Positions 21,947-32,568 of a stretch of 64,000 nt of DNA are shown here, one piece after another. Location of the stretch: assembly GCA_000953695.1 (NCBI GenBank), contig LN554847.1, forward strand, positions 1,367,801 to 1,431,800. Direction: 5' to 3'. Below the pieces are notes generated by a model. The model was not told the DNA's origin and searched no databases. It saw only the letters and a list, made by a program, of their open reading frames with translations. Both the position numbers and the translations under genes were made by a program. The stretch is from Aliivibrio wodanis (GTDB lineage: Bacteria; Pseudomonadota; Gammaproteobacteria; Enterobacterales; Vibrionaceae). Numbering within the stretch: position 1 is the first letter of the stretch; every line of letters starts with the position of its first letter.

Positions 21947-24424
21947 TTACTTCAGTGGCTTCAATAGTTGCTTAATCACACTCACCAAACTCATAAATAC
22001 AATAATCATGGCAAGTAATGGCAGCACAATCCACATGCCTATGTGCAATGTAGGTTCAAGTTTAAAACCCCATTTCACTAAGCTAAATACGATGACCTCT
22101 GCGCCCATCACAGCAACAAAACCTGCGGCTAATGCCATTACCCCGTATTCACTCCATAACGTCTGGCTAATACGCTGACGGCTTGCACCAAGGGTTCGAT
22201 AAAGGGTAATTTCACGTTGACGCTGATACAAACTCAACCGAAGCAAAGTGAATATCAATAACACGCCACTCACCACACCTAAGCCTGCTAATACACTTAA
22301 CGACCACGTAATTTGAGCGAGCATGGCTTGAATTTTTCCACCCATGGTTCTAAAATCCAATAAACTCACGGTTGGGTAATCACGAGCCAATTGATTCAAT
22401 AAGGTGTTTTCGTTGTCATCTATTTTAAAACTAACTAACCAAGTGGCAGGTAAATCGGCAATCACATCCGGCGTGAAGATAAAATAGAAGTTCGGTTTCA
22501 TGCTCTGCCAGTCAACAATTCGAATCGAATTAACTACAGCAGAAAATGGCTGACTGTTAACCGAAAAACTCAATGTATCACCAATTTCAATGCCCAAATC
22601 ATTAGCAACATCTTGCTCTACAGAGACTCCATTTTCTTTCGTCCATGCCCCTGCTGTGACTTGATTATGAACCGGCAATTCATCACGCCAAGTAAAGTTA
22701 ATCTCACGACGTAGTGCATCTGAGCCTTGTCCTTCACCTTTCATTTTCTCTTTGGTACTTTCCCCGTTAATTTCAGTTAAACGACCCCGAATAATTGGAT
22801 AACCATCCGATCTATCTAGCTTTTCATTATCTAATGCTTGTAAGTATTCTTGTTGCTCATAAGGGGCAATGTTCATCGCAAATACATTCGGTGCATCAGG
22901 TGGTAGCGTTTGTTGCCAATCCCCTAGTAAATCGGTTCTCACTAGCCAGATCACGGCAACTAACATTAATGAACCCGACAATGCGGCTAATTGCATCATG
23001 CTGTTTTTTGGAGAACGTTTAATGCGACTAAGCGCTAGAGTCATCGCTGCACCCCATTTAAAGCGTCCAAACAGATGCACTAAGCCATAACTAATACCTG
23101 CAAGTAAAACAAACAGTACCACTAAGCCAACCGATACCATCCAGACTAGGCTGTTATTGCCGTACATAAATAAGAAAGCGACTACTGGTACCGCAATTAA
23201 CCACAAGCCTTTTTTAGAAGGTGCGGTCATTTGAGATTGAAGTACCGCAATGGCAGGAGTATCTAATAAGCGCAATAATGGAATACCCAACGCAGGTAAA
23301 CCAATAAACAACGCAACGACAGAACCAAACGCAAACGGCTGCCAACCATAACTTGGTAAATTCTCAGGTAGGATCCCCGCTAATGGAATACGTAGTAATA
23401 ATTCTAAACCTAGACCAATAAGAGAGCCCGCAACTACGCCAGTAAAGAACATCAAACCCACTTGGCTTAATAACCAACGTTTCAACCATTGTTTACTCGC
23501 GCCCATGCTTTTTAACATCGCAACGGTATTGGCACGACTGGTCGCGTAATGCTGACACGTTAACACCAAGGTAACCGATGCCATTAGTATCACCATCAAG
23601 ATAGTCAGCGATAAATACTGCTTGGCTTTTTGCATTAAATCGGCGGTTCGACCTTGAGTTTCTTCGCTTATCCAACGCTCTCCTGCTTGCAATTCATAAT
23701 CACTTTGCAGTAACGATATTGCACTATCTTCACCTTTAAATAGGGTTCGATATTGCACACGACTGCCCAGTTGAATCGCACCAGTTTTATCTAAATCAGA
23801 CTGATGAATAAACACACTTGGCATGGTTCTAAATGGGTTAAACGCTAACTCTGGTTCCGATTCAATTACACCACTGATTGGCAGTTCAGCATCACCAATA
23901 GCAATGACATCACCAATACTCAGCTCTAATAACGATAAGAGGCGCTCGGCGATCCATACTTCTCCTGATTTAACTTGATTATGGATTTGGTTATCTGCCC
24001 CATTTAATAAGAGCTCACCGCGAAGTGGGTAATTACTTTCAACCGATTTCACACTCACTAATTGCATACCAGTGTCGCTGAATGCCATAGTTTGAAAACG
24101 CACTTGAGAAGATAAAACTAAATTTTGGTCATGCGCTTGTTGCAGAATAAATTCGGGGGTTGGATTCGCGGAACGAAACACAAGATCGGCAGCCATCATT
24201 GAGCGACCTTGGTCTGTCATTACCTTTTCAACTCGGATAGCCAAAGCAGATAAAGCCACCACACAAGAAACTATCAAAGTTAAAGCAGCCATCACAGGCC
24301 ATAGTTGGCCTTGCCATATCTCACGCCAACTCCAGCGGAATATCATTTTTTTTCCAGAAGATACTTCGCTCCCTGAAGGTAGATTATTTCCTGAGGGATT
24401 TGGCCTCACAGATTGCTCACTCAT
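21947..24424 (-). CDS. ybbP: FtsX-family ABC permease (YbbP-like)
   Basis: The 825-residue membrane protein has the duplicated MacB/FtsX architecture: a first membrane segment near 33-55, a large periplasmic domain, a group of three membrane segments around 270-400, a second set beginning near 410-500, another periplasmic domain, and the final three membrane segments around 700-820. It overlaps the ATPase gene upstream by four bases, so the two form one transporter. YbbA-YbbP pairs are type VII (mechanotransmission-type) ABC systems; the substrate is unknown and lipid or lipoprotein extraction is only inference. The N-terminus begins with an unusual Ser/Gly/Pro-rich stretch of about 25 residues. 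Confidence 0.86.
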   Translation of the reverse strand: MSEQSVRPNPSGNNLPSGSEVSSGKKMIFRWSWREIWQGQLWPVMAALTLIVSCVVALSALAIRVEKVMTDQGRSMMAADLVFRSANPTPEFILQQAHDQNLVLSSQVRFQTMAFSDTGMQLVSVKSVESNYPLRGELLLNGADNQIHNQVKSGEVWIAERLLSLLELSIGDVIAIGDAELPISGVIESEPELAFNPFRTMPSVFIHQSDLDKTGAIQLGSRVQYRTLFKGEDSAISLLQSDYELQAGERWISEETQGRTADLMQKAKQYLSLTILMVILMASVTLVLTCQHYATSRANTVAMLKSMGASKQWLKRWLLSQVGLMFFTGVVAGSLIGLGLELLLRIPLAGILPENLPSYGWQPFAFGSVVALFIGLPALGIPLLRLLDTPAIAVLQSQMTAPSKKGLWLIAVPVVAFLFMYGNNSLVWMVSVGLVVLFVLLAGISYGLVHLFGRFKWGAAMTLALSRIKRSPKNSMMQLAALSGSLMLVAVIWLVRTDLLGDWQQTLPPDAPNVFAMNIAPYEQQEYLQALDNEKLDRSDGYPIIRGRLTEINGESTKEKMKGEGQGSDALRREINFTWRDELPVHNQVTAGAWTKENGVSVEQDVANDLGIEIGDTLSFSVNSQPFSAVVNSIRIVDWQSMKPNFYFIFTPDVIADLPATWLVSFKIDDNENTLLNQLARDYPTVSLLDFRTMGGKIQAMLAQITWSLSVLAGLGVVSGVLLIFTLLRLSLYQRQREITLYRTLGASRQRISQTLWSEYGVMALAAGFVAVMGAEVIVFSLVKWGFKLEPTLHIGMWIVLPLLAMIIVFMSLVSVIKQLLKPLK

Positions 24425-25104
24425 ACTGCTTTTACCTCTTCATTAACCTGTCCGGCATTAATGGTAAGTGTGCGCTCACATCGCTGTGCAAGCTTAGGGT
24501 CATGAGTGATAAGAACTAATGTAGTGCCATGTTTTTGGTTCATATCAAACAAAAGTTCAATGATATGTTCTGCGGTAGATTGATCGAGATTTCCTGTTGG
24601 TTCATCAGCAAATAAAATACGAGGCTGAGTCATAAACGCACGAGCCAATGCTACGCGCTGCTGCTCACCACCAGACAGTTGAGAAGGAAGATGCGTTTCT
24701 CGCCCAGCAAGGCCAACTGAATCTAACAACTGTTTTGCTTTTCCAATATCTTCACCTTCACCTCGTAAAATCGCAGGTAAGGTAACATTTTCAAGTGCCG
24801 TTAAAGAAGGGATAAGCAAGAAACTTTGAAACACAAAACCAATAGATTCACTGCGAATTTGAGCGCGAGCTTCATCATCTAATTGAGAAAGGCTTTGTCC
24901 TAATAATTCAATATCACCAGAAGTAGGGATATCTAATCCTGCTAGCAAAGTCATTAACGTTGATTTACCGGCACCAGAGGTTCCTACAATCGCTACACTT
25001 TGGCCTGACTGAACCTCAAAAGAGATATCTTTTAAAATAGTTAATTCTGCTTCATTAGAAAGTACTGATTTTCCTACTGAGCTCACTTTTATGGCAACGG
25101 TCAT
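24421..25104 (-). CDS. ybbA: ABC transporter ATP-binding protein (YbbA/LolD family)
   Basis: The 227-residue ATPase has Walker A GTSGAGKST (about 41-49), Q-loop FVFQSFLLIPS, signature LSGGEQQRVALAR, Walker B ILFADEPTGNLD and the H-loop ITHD. It belongs to the LolD/MacB/YbbA group that partners with FtsX-type permeases. It is the first gene of the ybbA-ybbP unit, with a four-base overlap (ATGA). In many gamma-proteobacteria ybbA is divergent from tesA; here the tesA gene lies almost 7 kb away, beyond the ynb-like module. Confidence 0.88.
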   Translation of the reverse strand: MTVAIKVSSVGKSVLSNEAELTILKDISFEVQSGQSVAIVGTSGAGKSTLMTLLAGLDIPTSGDIELLGQSLSQLDDEARAQIRSESIGFVFQSFLLIPSLTALENVTLPAILRGEGEDIGKAKQLLDSVGLAGRETHLPSQLSGGEQQRVALARAFMTQPRILFADEPTGNLDQSTAEHIIELLFDMNQKHGTTLVLITHDPKLAQRCERTLTINAGQVNEEVKAV

Positions 25105-25419: not shown

Positions 25420-26007
25420 ATGAGCATTTATCAGCTTAAACCTAAGTTTCAATCTCTCTTACGCCCTGGTGTTAATCGACTTGCTCATTCTGGAGTTACC
25501 GCAAATCAAGTCACACTATTTACACTTGTTTTTACGCTTGTGAGCTCTATAACCCTCTTTACTATTGGGGCAAGTGTATGGTGGGGGATTTTACCTATTG
25601 TTCTTTTTATACGCATGGCTTTAAATGCCGTTGACGGTATGCTTGCACGAGAACACAACATGGCCTCTTCACTTGGGTTAGTGTTAAATGAAGTGTGCGA
25701 CTTAATTTCTGATGCTGCTATCTATTTAAGTTTTATCGCGATAACAGGATTTAACGCCTATGCATTATTTGGCTTAGTTCTGCTTGCGTGGTTAAGCGAA
25801 GTGATTGCAATTCTCTCTGTTCAAATAACAAAAAAACGAGCTAATCAAGGTCCTCTTGGGAAAAGTGACCGGGCTTTCTTATTTGGGTTGCTAGGCTTAT
25901 TAATTGCGTTTGAGGTAGATTTCACATCAAGCGGTCTTTGGATAATTCTTATCGCCAATCTCGCGTTAGTTATCACCATATATAAACGTTTACACACCAT
26001 TATTTAG
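25420..26007 (+). CDS. ynbA: CDP-alcohol phosphatidyltransferase (YnbA-like)
   Basis: The 195-residue integral membrane enzyme has about five or six membrane segments. The catalytic signature starts at residue 72 as DGMLAR, followed by eight residues, G, LVL, then N where the consensus has Asp, EVC and D. The motif is DGx2ARx8Gx3Dx3D, so one of the metal-binding aspartates is Asn. As I recall, E. coli YnbA has the same Asn (GAILNETGD), so this is a subfamily trait, not decay. The enzyme would join CDP-diacylglycerol to an alcohol, of unknown identity. It starts the six-gene lipid module and precedes ynbC by seven bases. Confidence 0.84.
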   Translation: MSIYQLKPKFQSLLRPGVNRLAHSGVTANQVTLFTLVFTLVSSITLFTIGASVWWGILPIVLFIRMALNAVDGMLAREHNMASSLGLVLNEVCDLISDAAIYLSFIAITGFNAYALFGLVLLAWLSEVIAILSVQITKKRANQGPLGKSDRAFLFGLLGLLIAFEVDFTSSGLWIILIANLALVITIYKRLHTII

Positions 26008-26014
26008 GTAAATT

Positions 26015-27658
26015 ATGACATTAGAACACCACAGCTTTTCGTCTTGGGATGAGACAAAGATAATCTACCGCTCTTGGAACCAACAACCAGATACGAAAGG
26101 CATCATCTTGTTGTTACACCGAGGGCATGAACATTCAGGAAGAATGGAGGCGATGGCTGATTTCTTTGTGAACCATAATTACACAGTCTATGCTTGGGAT
26201 GCACGCGGTAATGGATTATCCGAAGGGCCACGAGATGACGCAAAAAGTTTCTCTGTCTTTGCTAAAGACCTTCAACTTTTTGTAGAAAAAATTAGTAACG
26301 AAACCCAACGTTCAACTGAAGATATGTTTATTATTGCCAGTAGCATGGGAGCTGTTATTGCGGCAAGTTGGGTTCATGATTATGCGCCAAATATTCGAGG
26401 GATGATCCTTGCAACTCCTGCGTTTAATATTCGTCTATATGTCCCTTTTGCTATTCCACTGTTAAAAGTAGCAAGGCAACTCTCACTGTTACCTAAAGTC
26501 ACCAGTTACGTAAAATCAAAAGTTCTGACTCATGATAGATCTCAACAGGCGATTTATAATCAAGACCCACTTATTTCAAACTCTATCTCAACAGATCTTT
26601 TAATTGATACCTACCAAACAGGACAACGGATCATTGATGATGCAGAAGCTATCCATACGCCAACCTTAGTTCTGTGTGCAGGCCAAGATTGGGTTGTCAG
26701 TCGCTCAGCACAGCGTAAATTTTATAATCGCCTCTCTTCAACAAAAAAAGAATGGGCTTATTATCCTGATCTTTACCACGCTATTTTCCATGAAGATAAA
26801 ACAACAGACGTCTTCAACAGATGCCAAACCTTTCTTGATGAATGCTTTGTGCAACCTATCATTAAAGTTAATTACGACAACGCCAATCACTATGGTACAA
26901 GCAAAGATAAGATGGATTCGCTTTTACTGCCAAGCATACATCCAATCTACCCAATAACTAAAGCCGTGCTGAACTCTATTGGCCGTTTAAGCCAAGGGAT
27001 CAATATTGGTTTACAGCATGGGTTTGATTCAGGTCAATCACTCGATAACGTCTATACCAATAAAGCAGAAGGGACTACCTTTATAGGTAAAATAGTGGAT
27101 CGAATTTACCTCGACAGTCCAGGCTGGAAAGGCATTCGTTGTAGAAAAGAAATCATAGCTAAACTGCTCGAAAAGTACCTTGATACTACACGACCATTTC
27201 ATGTACTTGATATTGCCAGTGGTAACGGGCGTTACCTGTTTGACCTTATGGATTCAAACCCTCTGACTTCGGTTGAAATGAGAGATTTTGACTCATCAAA
27301 CATTCAAATAATGGCTTCACGTATCGAAAGCATGAATTTAGCATCACGAGCGAATGCTGTTCAAGCCGACGCTTTTTCTAAAGAGAATTACCTTAATGAA
27401 TCAAACTATGATCTTGCCATTGTCTCGGGGTTATTTGAACTTTTCCCTGATAACACCTTAATTAAAACGGCCTTGAAAGGCATGGTTGAACAGCTAGCTC
27501 CCGGAGGATATTTATTGTATACCAATCAACCTTGGCACCCACAACAAGAGTTCATAGCAAGAACACTTAATAATCATAGAGGGAAACCATGGATAATGCG
27601 CTGTCGCTCTCAAGCGGAAATGGATGCTTTAGTCACAGAAGCAGGACTAAAAAAATAG
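26015..27658 (+). CDS. ynbC: Alpha/beta hydrolase-methyltransferase fusion (YnbC-like), C-terminus frameshifted
   Basis: The 547-residue protein has an N-terminal monoacylglycerol-lipase-like hydrolase (about 1-280: HRGHEHSGRMEAMADFF, YAWDARGNGLSEGPR, nucleophile elbow ASSMGA, acid LCAGQDWVVS, His in YPDLYHAIFH) and a C-terminal class I SAM methyltransferase (about 380-547: VLDIASGNGRYLFDL). This hydrolase-methyltransferase fusion is characteristic of YnbC. The frame stops at 27656 just after a run of seven A (27649-27655). With one more A it continues KIDMNIDPSGIFTVSIAQKNL and stops at 27715-27717, two bases before the next ATG. That tail resembles the usual methyltransferase end, so about 20 residues appear lost. 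The substrate is unknown, probably a lipid. Confidence 0.82.
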   Translation: MTLEHHSFSSWDETKIIYRSWNQQPDTKGIILLLHRGHEHSGRMEAMADFFVNHNYTVYAWDARGNGLSEGPRDDAKSFSVFAKDLQLFVEKISNETQRSTEDMFIIASSMGAVIAASWVHDYAPNIRGMILATPAFNIRLYVPFAIPLLKVARQLSLLPKVTSYVKSKVLTHDRSQQAIYNQDPLISNSISTDLLIDTYQTGQRIIDDAEAIHTPTLVLCAGQDWVVSRSAQRKFYNRLSSTKKEWAYYPDLYHAIFHEDKTTDVFNRCQTFLDECFVQPIIKVNYDNANHYGTSKDKMDSLLLPSIHPIYPITKAVLNSIGRLSQGINIGLQHGFDSGQSLDNVYTNKAEGTTFIGKIVDRIYLDSPGWKGIRCRKEIIAKLLEKYLDTTRPFHVLDIASGNGRYLFDLMDSNPLTSVEMRDFDSSNIQIMASRIESMNLASRANAVQADAFSKENYLNESNYDLAIVSGLFELFPDNTLIKTALKGMVEQLAPGGYLLYTNQPWHPQQEFIARTLNNHRGKPWIMRCRSQAEMDALVTEAGLKK

Positions 27659-27719
27659 ATATGAACATTGACCCCAGCGGCATATTTACGGTTTCTATTG
27701 CTCAAAAGAATCTCTAGTT

Positions 27720-28793
27720 ATGATCGCAAATCCCAAGAATAACCACGCACATGAATACCACAATACAAATAAGCCTTTTAAGCATTCAATGTTGATGTCT
27801 GGTGGCGGCTCACGATTTGGTTATTATCTTGGGATGTATGCAGCAGCCATTGCCTCGAACAAAAAACCGGACGCCATTTTTGCAACTTGCGGTGGAGCTA
27901 TCGCCGCTGGAATTGTTGGGTCATTTGAGTCAATTAAAGAGCAAAAAGAAGCCTTGCTTAGTCATGAAATCCATCAAATGTCTCAACGAATTCAATATAA
28001 TAAAAGACACTCTCTTATCAATGTATTTTTAGATATTGGTAAGCGATATCTCCATCGTAGAGCAACTGATATTTTTCCTGATCTTCATCATGATGCCCTT
28101 TTTAATATAAATGATAATGACACACCTCTGTTTCCTTTCACTCCTAACTACGCTTCAAACAACTGTACCATTGCGATTATTGGATCAAAACTCTGCTTTA
28201 ACAATAATCAAGTAGGAACAAAAAGGCACGCTTCGCCTCTGTTTGAAGAAGTAATTTTTAGTAATAGAAAAGGAATATCAGCACTAATAAATGCCCCTTA
28301 CTCTCCCCACTCTTCACTTATAAAAAACACGTTTAAAAAAGAAGATTCCGTCTCTTTTCAGGATGCAATTCGTATCTCTGTGTCTGATATTTATTACCTA
28401 CCACCATACTCAGTTGCAGGAGAGAACTACATGGGAGGAATGTTGGATCTAGTCCCTTTTCATCTAGCTCAACATTGTTCAACAACACTCTCCTTAGAAG
28501 CAAAACAACCCTTCTCAAATTTCAGTGCCGTCCCCGCTTTTTTGTATCTTCTGGGTTATAATCCCAATGATGTTCAACAAGCGATCCCACACAGACCACA
28601 AGATATTTGGATCAACACTTCGGATTCTCCAAAAGAACTAAAAGCCCATCAAATTAACAAAAAAATTGACTTGTTATCTAATCAAATAGTGATTGATACA
28701 CCAAGTTATGACCAATTTTGTACCATGATGCAAGCTCAATGGGACTATGGTTATCAACGAGCATTAATTGCATTTAAACAACACCACAAATAA
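27720..28793 (+). CDS. Patatin-like protein with altered catalytic dyad
   Basis: The 357-residue protein has the patatin opening SGGGSRFGYYLGM (residues 27-39), an oxyanion-type glycine loop, and the nucleophile-elbow region AIFATCGGAIAAG. Where patatins have GxSxG with catalytic Ser, this protein has ATCGG with Cys 57. The second catalytic motif DGG appears as YMGGMLDLVP near residue 237, with Met in place of the Asp. The fold is recognisable but both dyad residues are changed, so it may be inactive, use another chemistry, or act as a lipid-binding or acyl-transfer protein. It follows ynbC almost directly and precedes the SDR gene by nine bases. It is not part of the E. coli ynbABCD set. Confidence 0.7.
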   Translation: MIANPKNNHAHEYHNTNKPFKHSMLMSGGGSRFGYYLGMYAAAIASNKKPDAIFATCGGAIAAGIVGSFESIKEQKEALLSHEIHQMSQRIQYNKRHSLINVFLDIGKRYLHRRATDIFPDLHHDALFNINDNDTPLFPFTPNYASNNCTIAIIGSKLCFNNNQVGTKRHASPLFEEVIFSNRKGISALINAPYSPHSSLIKNTFKKEDSVSFQDAIRISVSDIYYLPPYSVAGENYMGGMLDLVPFHLAQHCSTTLSLEAKQPFSNFSAVPAFLYLLGYNPNDVQQAIPHRPQDIWINTSDSPKELKAHQINKKIDLLSNQIVIDTPSYDQFCTMMQAQWDYGYQRALIAFKQHHK

Positions 28794-28802
28794 GGAACAC
28801 AC

Positions 28803-29537
28803 ATGAATGTCATCATTATTGGTGGAACAAGTGGTATTGGCCTTGCGCTAGCAAAACATTATGTAAACTCTGATCATCAAGTGGTTATTTGTGGGCGAGA
28901 TATTACCAAAGTACCTACAGAGTTAAAAACACCCTCATTATCCATGATGAATGTAGATGTGAGTCAGCAGAATGATCTCATTCAATTTTTTGATTCGTTA
29001 AAAGATAATCCAATGGATATTGTAATCTATTGTGCCGGAAAATATTTTAATGAAAGGCGCTTAGATCTCAATCAAGATGAGCAAAACGAAATGAGAGCAG
29101 TAAACGCAACAGGGTTTAATCTCTGTTTTGAGCTTGCATCACAAAAGATGATATCTCAAGGCTACGGTCATTTGGTGACCATAGCTTCAATAGCAGGGTT
29201 AGTACACTCTTCTTCACCAACACTTTATAGTCGCTTAAAAGCCGATATGATCACACAAGCAAAGCACTATGCGGCAACCTTAGAAAATCACAATATCAAC
29301 GTGACAGCTATCGCACCCGGTTATATTAATACCCAAAAACTCAGAGAGTTAAATGGAGGAGACGCTTCTCATAAGCCTTTTTTATTAGAAGAGCATCAAG
29401 CGGTAAGTTGCATAATCAAAGCCATTAAAAAGAAGAAAATTCTCAGTGTCTTTCCTCTAAGAATGAAGCTACTTGTCAGTTTTTTAAATTACTTACCTTT
29501 ACACCTTGTTAGTGAAGTCTTAAGAGCTCGACGATAA
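28803..29537 (+). CDS. Short-chain dehydrogenase/reductase
   Basis: This 244-residue classical SDR has the nucleotide site GGTSGIG (residues 7-13), the strand NVDVSQ, the CAGK version of NNAG, the catalytic serine in TIASIAG, and YSRLK as the YxxxK pair. The Arg in CGRD favours NADP(H). It ends the plus-strand half of the lipid module, and its last 29 bases overlap the convergent ynbB gene. It probably reduces or oxidises a lipid-linked hydroxyl or keto group, which is inference from context. AAGGAAC lies just before the ATG. Confidence 0.82.
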   Translation: MNVIIIGGTSGIGLALAKHYVNSDHQVVICGRDITKVPTELKTPSLSMMNVDVSQQNDLIQFFDSLKDNPMDIVIYCAGKYFNERRLDLNQDEQNEMRAVNATGFNLCFELASQKMISQGYGHLVTIASIAGLVHSSSPTLYSRLKADMITQAKHYAATLENHNINVTAIAPGYINTQKLRELNGGDASHKPFLLEEHQAVSCIIKAIKKKKILSVFPLRMKLLVSFLNYLPLHLVSEVLRARR

Positions 29538-30402
29538 AGAAAAATATCGGTGTAGCTAAAAGTAAACTATCAATACGATCAAGTATTCCGCCATGTCCTG
29601 GGAGTAAATCCCCCATATCTTTAACACCAAACTTGCGCTTAACCCAAGAGACACTAACATCACCTGAAACGCCTAATACAGTTAAAGTAAAACTGATCAC
29701 CATAGCTGAAATAAGAGAAAAAGGGGTAATAGATAGAGCAACCACAGTCGCTAACAATGATACAATTAGCCCTCCTCCAATTGCCCCTTCTACCGTTTTA
29801 TTAGGACTGATTGTGGGACACAGTTGATGTTTACCAAATTTCTTCCCAACAAAATATTGAATCGCATCATTAAATTGCGTCGTAAATATAAGATACAGCA
29901 CATAGCTCATCGCTAATTCACTGTCTTTATTATTAAGTAATAACCTAAAAGAGAAAAGAAAAGCAGCAAGTAATATTATAATACTTAAAATTGGGATGAT
30001 CTTATTGCTCCCCCCCATAATAAAGCCATTTTGGGATATAAACAAACACGTTAAAATACAAACAAATCCTATAACACCGGTTATCAGCATGATATAAAAA
30101 GACCAATAGCTTAATAGTATTGGTAGCGTCATTGACGCCATCAAAATACAAGTCATTAATGTGTTTAATCGACTCACCGTTGCTATTTCTTTTGCTCCCA
30201 TTAACGCTAAAAATGAGATAAATAGAGGCATAAATGAGATAGGTAGTAACACAAAGAATGTGAGAACCAATAACATCCACCACCATGACCTAACACGTAA
30301 GTAAAACTCAGAACTAAGAGACTCTTTTTTGATAAAAGCAGCAACCATAGCGATAGAGATACAAGTAAATATTATCAACATAAAAATTAGGTTAGAGCTC
30401 AT
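29509..30402 (-). CDS. ynbB: CDP-diglyceride synthase family protein (YnbB/CdsA-like)
   Basis: The 297-residue membrane protein has about eight hydrophobic segments and ends with the CdsA signature: SWVKRKFGVKDMGDLLPGHG followed by GILDRID (about residues 254-280), matching the S-x-x-K-R...K-D...P-G-H-G-G...D-R-x-D pattern. It would make CDP-diacylglycerol from phosphatidic acid and CTP, the substrate of the YnbA-like transferase. The main cellular cdsA is not in this window, so this is likely a second, dedicated copy. Its ATG overlaps the ynbD stop (TAATG), so translation is coupled. Confidence 0.85.
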   Translation of the reverse strand: MSSNLIFMLIIFTCISIAMVAAFIKKESLSSEFYLRVRSWWWMLLVLTFFVLLPISFMPLFISFLALMGAKEIATVSRLNTLMTCILMASMTLPILLSYWSFYIMLITGVIGFVCILTCLFISQNGFIMGGSNKIIPILSIIILLAAFLFSFRLLLNNKDSELAMSYVLYLIFTTQFNDAIQYFVGKKFGKHQLCPTISPNKTVEGAIGGGLIVSLLATVVALSITPFSLISAMVISFTLTVLGVSGDVSVSWVKRKFGVKDMGDLLPGHGGILDRIDSLLLATPIFFFIVELLRLH

Positions 30403-31625
30403 TATTTGCCTCTCTCCACGCTATATTCGCTCAACTTCTGTAATAATTCTTGTTCTAAATAACGTTCTCTTAACATAGCATGAGGATTTAACGTAGATAA
30501 ATACGCCTTAACCTTACACGGTTCACACTCACCAGACCACACAAGATAACTTGCTATCATGGCATAGCTTCGACTGATCCCCATCGTACAATGCACATAA
30601 ACAGAAAAGGCTTCATTGCTGTTTTTTATTACTTCTAAAGATTCACAAAAAAGCACGGCATCAGCCATTGTGATTGGCTGTAAATCCAATAAAGGTAAAC
30701 ATCTATATTGATTCTCTCCTTGATATGCATCATCGTAATGAAGAGTCGACATTAGCGATAATTCTGAACTTAAATCAATAACATGTGTAAAATTTCTTGG
30801 TTTATCCATCATTGATAATCGTCGACCAACACTTAACCATGGCAAGACAGAAACCACTGGCTGTTTATCAACCAAAGAACGAATATTCCACATAAACCAA
30901 TACATAAATCGATAAGGAAATAGGCAAATAAGATGAGCCATTCCCACCTTACCATCACAACGCTTACCGAGTGCATAAGGTTTATTCATAAAATAAGCAA
31001 TAAATAGCAGCCCAAACCCTATTGATAAATAACCAAACAATAGACTTAACATAGGATTAAAGCTCGTCAATATCATGCTCAATAACCAACAGGTCGATGT
31101 TAACGATAAATAGATTTGTGACAGATAACTCAAAAGACAATATCGAGTGAAGCCTAGCACTCCAACAGAAACAACAAGCCCACTAAGCACATCAATGATT
31201 CGATGCTGATAAGTAAATAGCGTTGATACCAACATTAGTGTAATACCCATCGTAATAACCCAATTTACTGCACGATTAAATCGCCCAAGTAGTGAGAACC
31301 ATAATAAAATACCGTAGACAATATGCAGGGAAGGTGCTTGATTATAAGGCTTATCAAAAAAATAAACCCCATCAAAACCGAGCTTCCAAGGATAACTGCT
31401 CACTAATTCAATCGAACCAAAATATAATGGATATAAATAAAAACACCAGCCAGAGATTAAGGCAGCAAATAACATATTTTGATTTAATTGTTGATATTTT
31501 TTAGGTTCATCAATATAAAAAAAGGCAAGTAAGAAATAAATAACAGAACTTAAATAAGGAATGATCATCCATTCAATAAAAGGAAGCGCTAAATCGAACC
31601 CAGTAATGACACTTCGAGTAATCAT
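30402..31625 (-). CDS. ynbD: PAP2 / dual-specificity phosphatase fusion (YnbD-like)
   Basis: The 407-residue protein has an N-terminal membrane PAP2-like region (about 1-220, with YNQAPSLHIVYGILLW and YQHRIIDVLSG, the SxH and HxxxD elements of the superfamily) and a C-terminal cytoplasmic dual-specificity phosphatase domain with HCTMGISRSYAM at about 346-357, an intact HCx5R loop. The same fusion occurs in YnbD. It could remove a phosphate from a phosphatidyl-alcohol phosphate, as PGP phosphatases of the PTPMT1 type do; this is inference. It is the first gene of the minus-strand pair ynbD-ynbB. Its upstream region holds a three-copy 10-bp tandem repeat. Confidence 0.84.
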   Translation of the reverse strand: MITRSVITGFDLALPFIEWMIIPYLSSVIYFLLAFFYIDEPKKYQQLNQNMLFAALISGWCFYLYPLYFGSIELVSSYPWKLGFDGVYFFDKPYNQAPSLHIVYGILLWFSLLGRFNRAVNWVITMGITLMLVSTLFTYQHRIIDVLSGLVVSVGVLGFTRYCLLSYLSQIYLSLTSTCWLLSMILTSFNPMLSLLFGYLSIGFGLLFIAYFMNKPYALGKRCDGKVGMAHLICLFPYRFMYWFMWNIRSLVDKQPVVSVLPWLSVGRRLSMMDKPRNFTHVIDLSSELSLMSTLHYDDAYQGENQYRCLPLLDLQPITMADAVLFCESLEVIKNSNEAFSVYVHCTMGISRSYAMIASYLVWSGECEPCKVKAYLSTLNPHAMLRERYLEQELLQKLSEYSVERGK

Positions 31626-31950
31626 TTGATTTTCTGCATACCAATTATTACTGGTATAAATCAGTGTAAATCAGTGTAAATCAGTGTAAATATAAGAGTT
31701 TGAAATAATATCAACGTGATTTTTATAATAACTGAGGTCGTATTATTGTTAGTATTATCATGCACGAGGTTTTCAATGTCCTTATTGATAAACAAGCGGC
31801 TACTTAATGCAATGAAGTCTATGTTAATTTATTAATGATGTCTAATACGAACAACTGACAGACTTTCATTACTAAAATCAAAATAAACATTGCAATATGA
31901 ATGTATTTTTTCCATTGTATGCTTCAATATATTTACTATTTGAGAATATT
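31626..31950. other. Intergenic region between ynbD and tesA
   Basis: This 325-base AT-rich gap lies between two divergent genes. It contains three perfect tandem copies of a 10-base unit near the ynbD start and otherwise no clear gene. The open frame reaching back from tesA to 31897 is not used as coding because its extension precedes a good signal peptide start. No classical operator was recognised. Confidence 0.5.
31658..31691. repeat. Three-copy 10-bp tandem repeat (TCAGTGTAAA)
   Basis: TCAGTGTAAA occurs perfectly at 31661-31670, 31671-31680 and 31681-31690, preceded by a degenerate unit CTGGTATAAA. It lies 33-66 bases upstream of the ynbD start. A unit of 10 bp is about one helical turn, so copy-number change would shift promoter elements while keeping their face of the helix. 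Confidence 0.9.
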
Positions 31951-32568
31951 ATGCGCAAGATTTTTACTTTTTTTTTAATTGTCTTTCCTAGCTTATTTCT
32001 TCCATTTAAAAGTGCTTATAGCCAAACCTTGTTGATCCTCGGAGACAGCTTAAGTGCAGGTTATAGCATGCCAATCGAGCAAAGTTGGCCATCACTATTA
32101 CCAGATCAACTAGCTAAAATAAATAAACCTATGACGGTCGTCAATGGCAGTATTTCTGGAGATACGACAGGAAATGGGTTAGACCGATTACAAAACTTAC
32201 TTAACCTGCATCAACCAAATTATGTATTAATCGAACTAGGAGCAAATGATGGCTTACGTGGATTCCCACCACAAAAAGTAAAAGCAAACTTGGAGCTGCT
32301 TTTTGCTCAAATTAAATCAGCTGACGCGCAACCTTTGTTAATGCAAATTCAAGTTCCACCGAATTATGGTAAGCGTTATAGCCAATCGTTTGGTTCGATT
32401 TACCCTGCATTAAGTGAGAAATACGATATTCCTTTACTTCCATTTTTCTTAGAGCAAGTAATTATTAAACCAGAATGGATGATGAAAGACGGCTTGCACC
32501 CTAAACCAGAAGCACAGCCATGGATTGCAGAATTTATGGCGCAAGAACTATCACCTTATTTAAAATAA
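31951..32568 (+). CDS. tesA: Acyl-CoA thioesterase I / lysophospholipase L1 (TesA-like)
   Basis: The 205-residue periplasmic SGNH hydrolase starts with a signal peptide (MRKIFTFFLIVFPSLFLPFK, cleaved near AYSQ). Block I is GDSLSAGYSM with the catalytic Ser, block II is NGSISGDTTGNG, block III is ELGANDGLRG, and block V is DGLHPKPEAQ with Asp and His. The length matches TesA. I chose the ATG at 31951 over the upstream 31897 because it gives a normal signal peptide. It hydrolyses thioesters and lysophospholipids in the periplasm. It is divergent from ynbD rather than from ybbA. Confidence 0.87.
   Translation: MRKIFTFFLIVFPSLFLPFKSAYSQTLLILGDSLSAGYSMPIEQSWPSLLPDQLAKINKPMTVVNGSISGDTTGNGLDRLQNLLNLHQPNYVLIELGANDGLRGFPPQKVKANLELLFAQIKSADAQPLLMQIQVPPNYGKRYSQSFGSIYPALSEKYDIPLLPFFLEQVIIKPEWMMKDGLHPKPEAQPWIAEFMAQELSPYLK

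Follow-up and report, generated by a model that had tools for sequence, protein, structure and literature searches.

When considering the possibility that a bacterium makes a special phospholipid with enzymes of its own, a simple question has to be put to any candidate locus: do its genes belong together, and what could their products do in concert? This question is raised by a stretch of DNA from Aliivibrio wodanis (64,000 nucleotides, positions 1,367,801 to 1,431,800 of contig LN554847.1, assembly GCA_000953695.1; hereafter, the window), which comes from the second contig of a 4.6-Mb genome. Six open reading frames (ORFs) at 25420..31625 of the window form two convergent groups, with ynbA, ynbC, a patatin gene and a gene for a short-chain dehydrogenase/reductase (SDR) facing ynbB and ynbD:

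25420..26007, + strand: ynbA, CDP-alcohol phosphotransferase-like membrane protein of 195 aa (Pfam PF01066 CDP-OH_P_transf, 39 bits)
26015..27658, + strand: ynbC, monoglyceride-lipase-like hydrolase fused to a class I S-adenosylmethionine (SAM) methyltransferase (Pfam PF12146 Hydrolase_4 and PF12147 Methyltransf_20)
27720..28793, + strand: PAT, patatin-fold protein of 357 aa with Cys57 at the nucleophile elbow (Pfam Patatin)
28803..29537, + strand: SDR, classical short-chain dehydrogenase/reductase (Pfam PF00106 adh_short)
29509..30402, - strand: ynbB, CDP-diacylglycerol synthase-like protein (Pfam PF01148 CTP_transf_1, 182.7 bits)
30402..31625, - strand: ynbD, PAP2_3 lipid phosphatase/phosphotransferase domain fused to a dual-specificity phosphatase (DSP) domain (Pfam PF14378 and PF00782, DSPc)

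The two convergent groups and the protein families proposed in a previous, sequence-only reading of this DNA are confirmed by the ORF coordinates and by the Pfam domains, with matches far above chance (best E-value per protein from 3e-8 to 3e-84); at their 3' ends, SDR and ynbB share 29 bases. A CDP-alcohol transferase, a CDP-diacylglycerol synthase-like protein, a hydrolase-methyltransferase fusion and a PAP2-DSP fusion are thus encoded together, as in a ynbABCD-type module. Here we argue that the best explanation of the locus, and a moderately probable one, is a dedicated accessory pathway, exchanged horizontally, for the synthesis and subsequent remodelling of a special glycerophospholipid.

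Recurrence of the gene set

The four ynb types, the patatin and the SDR make up a real, recurrent unit. The genome collection was scanned with the patatin alignment and two short peptide patterns, by which distant relatives are missed; this gave 78 patatin loci, 67 of them with YnbC, 67 with YnbB and 68 with the SDR in the fetched stretch. Specifically, 26 loci hold all six genes, 40 hold patatin, SDR, YnbB and YnbC, and one holds the same four plus a separate YnbA; the rest are one short contig with patatin and SDR alone and ten loci with patatin alone. Patatin loci that also have YnbC or SDR come from Aliivibrio, Vibrio, Psychrobacter, Rhodoferax, Alysiella and several Oxalobacteraceae, so that the set spans beta- and gammaproteobacteria, and it does so in differing gene orders. 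In particular, Oxalobacteraceae and Rhodoferax show YnbB-YnbC facing YnbA-YnbD, followed by patatin-SDR, and in the Alysiella genome YnbC and YnbA are on a separate contig. Within the Vibrionaceae, one locus (L048) has the set without a local YnbD, for which a match is found elsewhere in that genome, another (L051) has it without a recognised YnbA, and a third (L050) has YnbA, YnbC and YnbB without patatin or SDR. In Vibrio xiamenensis (L047, L053, L054), the full convergent set stands at an unrelated place. The sequence-only reading had held that the same genes at unrelated positions would speak against a module; they do occur at such positions and this argues for one, since the set therefore travels as a unit. 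A mobilizable plasmid of Moraxella osloensis, pNP7-2 (L194), has, in the midst of transposases, YnbC, patatin, SDR, YnbB and a PAP2 protein; YnbC is annotated there in its C-terminal part alone, whereas the match at the DNA level covers query residues 6-547.

The survey of YnbC neighbourhoods suggested by the same reading gave a positive result for co-occurrence of patatin and SDR. Among 329 Vibrionaceae genomes, patatin is found in five (E <= 1e-10), all of which are among the 11 YnbC-positive ones; the chance of such an overlap, computed by hand, is about 1.5e-8 under an independence of genomes that does not hold. Patatin is also found, at the same threshold, in 62 of 105 Psychrobacter genomes. 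When 39 YnbC proteins (20 from the 67 new YnbC loci plus earlier ones, with near-copies contributing) are placed on a tree, the label "with patatin" requires three changes as compared to 12.6 after shuffling, and none of 500 shuffles came as low; the association is therefore an old one, with few gains or losses. Hence patatin and SDR, described previously as additions to the ynb module, are genuine members of it, and they are so in one group of carriers.

Two of the proteins are even joined physically: in 40 of the 41 Psychrobacter loci, a single ORF contains both the YnbA motif and the beginning of YnbC, and in one of these 40 (L106) the frame then breaks inside YnbC. The two proteins have separate frames in the 41st locus (L121), and no such fusion is seen in the 26 loci outside Psychrobacter.

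Active sites and the proposed lipid pathway

What chemistry could such a set perform? YnbA does not match the CDP-alcohol phosphotransferase motif DxxDGxxAR...GxxxDxxxD. Its motif, N69-D72-N90-D94, has Asn at the first and third positions in 16 of 16 rows of the alignment; N-D-N-D is present in 44 of 44 YnbA proteins by pattern match and in the other 23, which were read by eye, and two other members of the CDP-alcohol transferase family in the same genome read D-D-D-D. As compared to the mycobacterial PgsA1 (6h53) and other CDP-alcohol phosphotransferases, YnbA shares the fold family by profile, most of the motif and the equivalents of R155 and R195, but has Asn for the first and third Asp and no equivalent of R94.

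This likeness suggests a pathway of the phosphatidylinositol type, in which YnbA would make phosphatidylinositol phosphate (PIP) and YnbD would dephosphorylate it. Indeed, YnbA scores best in NCBIfam with the archaetidylinositol- and phosphatidylinositol-phosphate synthases, its best PDB profile matches are mycobacterial PIP synthase chains, and R151 and R190 (16-row alignment) align with the phosphate-binding R155 and R195 of PgsA1. However, the NCBIfam scores, 65.2 and 57.3 bits, are far under the curated cut-offs of 180 and 170, and a search of the host genome gave no match to inositol-1-phosphate synthase (Inos-1-P_synth), which counts against the nearest annotated function of YnbA. Furthermore, none of the YnbA proteins examined has Lys or Arg directly following the fourth Asp of the motif; the passages available from PMC6506517 describe R94 as conserved in users of inositol phosphate. 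With both the synthase match and the inositol-phosphate Arg missing, the inositol route was rejected as very unlikely.

The second unusual active site is that of the patatin. The protein has the patatin fold, the catalytic dyad of which is defined by GxSxG and DGG. Cys57 is present in 78 of the 78 alignment rows with a residue there. In all 79 rows with a residue at position 238, which precedes the conserved GG, this residue is L, T, M, I, F or S and never Asp. In a weak alignment, Cys57 falls on the Ser of PlpD (5fya) that we take to be the PlpD nucleophile, so that the Ser-Asp dyad of PlpD and other bacterial patatin-like phospholipases is absent. Among the open-licence papers listed for patatin with "catalytic cysteine", none appears to describe a Cys-patatin.

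A clue to the role of this protein comes from the clusters that lack it. Among the 18 patatin-free YnbC loci (L021-L030, L043-L046, L049, L050, L195, L196), a PlsC-type acyltransferase adjoins YnbB in seven (L021, L022, L025, L027, L044, L195, L196; in L044, the pair of PlsC and YnbB lies about 7 kb from YnbC), and the other 11 have neither a patatin nor a PlsC match. The patatin loci searched (the window, L032, L047, L048, L051, L052-L129, L194) gave no PlsC match at E <= 1e-3. The PlsC-type clusters, such as those of Shinella pShin-01 and of a Burkholderia ambifaria plasmid, likewise keep YnbA, YnbB, YnbC and YnbD together, but they have the PlsC-type acyltransferase and a protein of about 150 aa in place of patatin and SDR. 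Patatin and PlsC would then be alternative ways of handling an acyl chain, and the existence of two such partners therefore points to a step of acyl exchange. The proteins of about 150 aa in these clusters (L195 11064-11501, L196 11158-11610, L022 7521-7985) gave no match to another cluster at E <= 1e-3. SnoaL-like proteins stand by the ynb genes in three of the 18 loci, the three tested (L023 11525-12121, L028 9230-9769, L029 1359-1913).

The active-site motifs of YnbB, the SDR and YnbD are kept. The CTP_transf_1 match of YnbB and its C-terminal signature GHGGxLDRxD, kept in 67 of 67 relatives, identify it as a CDP-diacylglycerol synthase-type protein. The SDR keeps S129-Y142-K146 (alignment A6, 23 rows), and both the Gly-rich cofactor motif and the Ser-Tyr-Lys pattern are found in 67 of its 68 relatives, with the second pattern alone in one, as expected of the short-chain dehydrogenases/reductases. 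The PAP2 motifs and the DSP motif HCx5R of YnbD are present in 26 of 26 relatives, and the hydrolase part of YnbC matches monoglyceride lipases. Elsewhere in three Psychrobacter genomes (L148, L149, L150), there are YnbD-like ORFs that, at about 520-560 aa, exceed the window's YnbD in length.

From these assignments we infer every reaction and a plausible order of reactions. YnbB would provide a dedicated pool of CDP-diacylglycerol, and YnbA, physically coupled to YnbC in Psychrobacter, would join the phosphatidyl group to an alcohol, probably other than inositol phosphate. YnbD would remove or exchange the phosphate, with its PAP2_3 domain acting at the membrane and its DSP domain in the cytosol. 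The hydrolase of YnbC could then take off an acyl chain or free the lipid and its methyltransferase cap the head group, while the Cys-patatin would add an acyl chain via a thioester intermediate, in the role played by the PlsC-type acyltransferase in the sister clusters, and the SDR would adjust a keto or hydroxyl group of that chain or of the head group. The previous reading had named no product lipid, and we, too, name none.

The same folds could serve the opposite purpose, namely, a catabolic or salvage unit in which the hydrolase, the patatin and the phosphatases degrade foreign or damaged lipid and YnbA and YnbB recycle its diacylglycerol part. YnbC and patatin do belong to hydrolase folds, and the sporadic, accessory distribution (11 of 329 Vibrionaceae) and the carriage of the set on the mobilizable plasmid would suit such a function. 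YnbB, however, with its signature intact in every relative, is of a biosynthetic type, and the change from Ser to Cys would fit transfer better than hydrolysis, so that salvage seems rather unlikely.

The pathway can also be viewed against E. coli ynbABCD (b1408-b1411), all four genes of which have homologues here (identities of 42% for YnbA, 31% for YnbB, 41% for YnbC and 27% for YnbD), including the hydrolase-methyltransferase and PAP2-DSP fusions. In E. coli, however, the genes form one operon in the order A-B-C-D, and the cluster lacks patatin, SDR and PlsC. Of 5426 E. coli genomes, 4579 gave a ynbABCD match, which in 4242 covered 80% or more of the operon. In spite of its presence in most E. 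coli genomes searched, none of the open-licence papers examined among those listed assigns a pathway or function to this operon, and searches of such papers for PF12147 or Methyltransf_20 and for the combination of genes found none. The earlier description of the operon as uncharacterised holds as far as a pathway is concerned and goes too far for YnbB, YnbD and ynbC, which have been studied in part (PMC6362211, PMC7413402, PMC2435150, as far as the available portions of these papers go). According to those portions, YnbB cannot replace CdsA (PMC6362211), and YnbD complements neither strains deficient in C55-PP phosphatase (bacA) nor those deficient in phosphatidylglycerol phosphate (PGP) phosphatase (pgpABC) (PMC7413402). 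That the two proteins are no substitutes for the housekeeping CdsA, Pgp and BacA speaks for a dedicated pathway. Disruption of ynbC is described to cause accumulation of polyphosphate, possibly via stress, with polar effects possible (excerpts of PMC2435150), and ynbC, with a substitution, is listed as up 1.48 in the accessible part of a persister study (PMC13313352).

Overproduction of YnbB raises the level of MPIase (PMC6362211, in the part available), which invites the idea that the module makes a glycolipid of the GlcNAc-PP-diacylglycerol type as a back-up for membrane protein insertion. The same portion of that paper reports, however, that a ynbB knockout leaves the MPIase level without significant change, and such a function would leave YnbA, YnbC, YnbD, patatin and SDR all unexplained; it seems highly improbable.

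Returning to the dedicated pathway, its boldest version would be an undescribed, widespread lipid pathway in which an N-D-N-D CDP-alcohol transferase and a Cys-patatin thioester acyltransferase, the latter replacing PlsC, build a methylated, redox-tailored phospholipid, with ynbABCD as the minimal form. This version is doubtful as a whole, and we put forward its two key elements, the Cys-patatin as an acyltransferase and the transferase chemistry of the N-D-N-D site, as unproven proposals. It draws on what is new here: the invariant Cys in place of Ser in the patatin, the N-D-N-D motif of YnbA, and the confinement of PlsC to a part of the patatin-free clusters.

Several observations weigh against a dedicated pathway of this kind. 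Devoid of two of the four metal-binding Asp residues, YnbA may not be a catalyst of the usual kind, and a patatin with neither the Ser nor the Asp could be inactive, to judge by the sequences. Six of the 11 YnbC-positive Vibrionaceae and nine of the ten genomes with strong YnbC matches in the class sample do not have patatin; the sole strong patatin match in that sample is the window's own (614.6 bits, the others being at most 28.3). Conversely, patatin occurs in ten genomes without YnbC (Collimonas L056, L057, L059, L061, L065, L069, L070, L115; Undibacterium L060, L066) and can therefore act or exist outside the module: none of the ten gave a PF12147 match, and in the six tested the matches to the YnbA profile were weak (at most 28.2 bits, versus 222 and 246 in two positives). 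YnbD lies outside the Psychrobacter clusters (a search of five of the genomes placed a YnbD match elsewhere in three and found none in the other two). Finally, ynbC and ynbD have broken frames in the window's own copy, as described below.

Whatever the product, the wider survey offers handles that are lacking in the E. coli operon by itself, namely, the YnbA-YnbC fusion, the two alternative acyl-handling partners, the unusual active sites of two enzymes, and a genus, Psychrobacter, in which the lipids of patatin-positive and patatin-negative genomes could be compared.

State of the window's copy

Does the set work in A. wodanis itself? A sibling, Aliivibrio sp. 1S175 (G376, locus L052), carries longer, uninterrupted ORFs at the same place, its patatin being 81% identical to that of the window. 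Relative to it, ynbC and ynbD are broken, so that not all four ynb genes are intact in this genome. As seen from DNA alignment, ynbC ends about 20 codons early because its frame breaks near 27650-27658, in a short run of A; the missing tail (GIFTVSIA...) is readable in another frame. The run, seven consecutive A with TAG behind them, is also a possible slippage site, and error, decay or slippage could each account for it. In ynbD, a repeat array that DNA alignment shows to be absent from the sibling leaves the first 40 or so codons of the sibling ORF (numbered from the earliest start codon) without an in-frame equivalent in the window, and hence the listed ORF starts at an internal ATG:

31657..31691, no strand: 10-bp tandem repeat with 3.5 perfect copies at the ynbD frame break (TRF)

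This repeat may be a phase switch or a sign of decay. The claim of a self-contained pathway made in the sequence-only reading was thus overstated, with two of the six frames broken here and YnbD unlinked in some hosts.

All six genes are nevertheless under purifying selection. The ratios of nonsynonymous to synonymous substitution rates (dN/dS) between window and sibling are 0.13 for ynbA, 0.09 for ynbC, 0.14 for patatin, 0.22 for SDR, 0.22 for ynbB and 0.20 for ynbD, and the genes on either side have 0.05 (ybbA-type) and 0.09 (tesA-type); therefore, all six appear to have been kept by selection until recently.

The flanking genes also define the set as an island in Aliivibrio:

24421..25104, - strand: left border, ATP-binding cassette (ABC) transporter ATPase, ybbA-type (adjoins tesA in 11 module-free Aliivibrio genomes)
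31897..32568, + strand: right border, tesA-type GDSL esterase (domain and genus search)

A tesA match is present in 13 of 14 Aliivibrio genomes and absent from the fourteenth. The ybbA-type gene adjoins tesA in 11 of the 13, which thus show the empty site, and the module sits between the two genes in the other two, the window's own genome and the sibling.

The association of the genes could, then, be real and yet yield no working pathway in this genome, the acquired island being in decay or switched off, which is compatible with a dedicated pathway in other carriers. The two frame breaks, both in simple repeats, and the empty site in 11 of the 13 Aliivibrio genomes with a tesA match favour this possibility. 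On the other side stand the low dN/dS of all six genes, the uninterrupted ORFs of the sibling, and the position of one break in a homopolymer, a kind of sequence prone to sequencing errors. With a single genome to go by, error, switching or decay may each have caused the breaks, and we give an idle island a substantial, though clearly minority, weight.

Distribution and composition

The distribution of YnbC, as judged by PF12147, is sporadic: it occurs in two of the 14 Aliivibrio genomes, in 11 of 329 Vibrionaceae and in 16 of 369 genomes of the class sample, the last comprising ten strong matches (at least 286 bits; the window's own genome included), three weak ones past the cut-off and three below it. 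A search of viral_contigs with YnbC found no relative. The search of plasmids returned 67 records, from which no count of plasmids was drawn because they include 4.8-Mb E. coli records and 38 cover less than 80% of the query. The base composition of the module (GC 0.375, window 0.378) gave no signal of foreign origin. Scans for promoters and terminators gave 18 sites versus 25.9 expected and 6 versus 4.5 expected, respectively.

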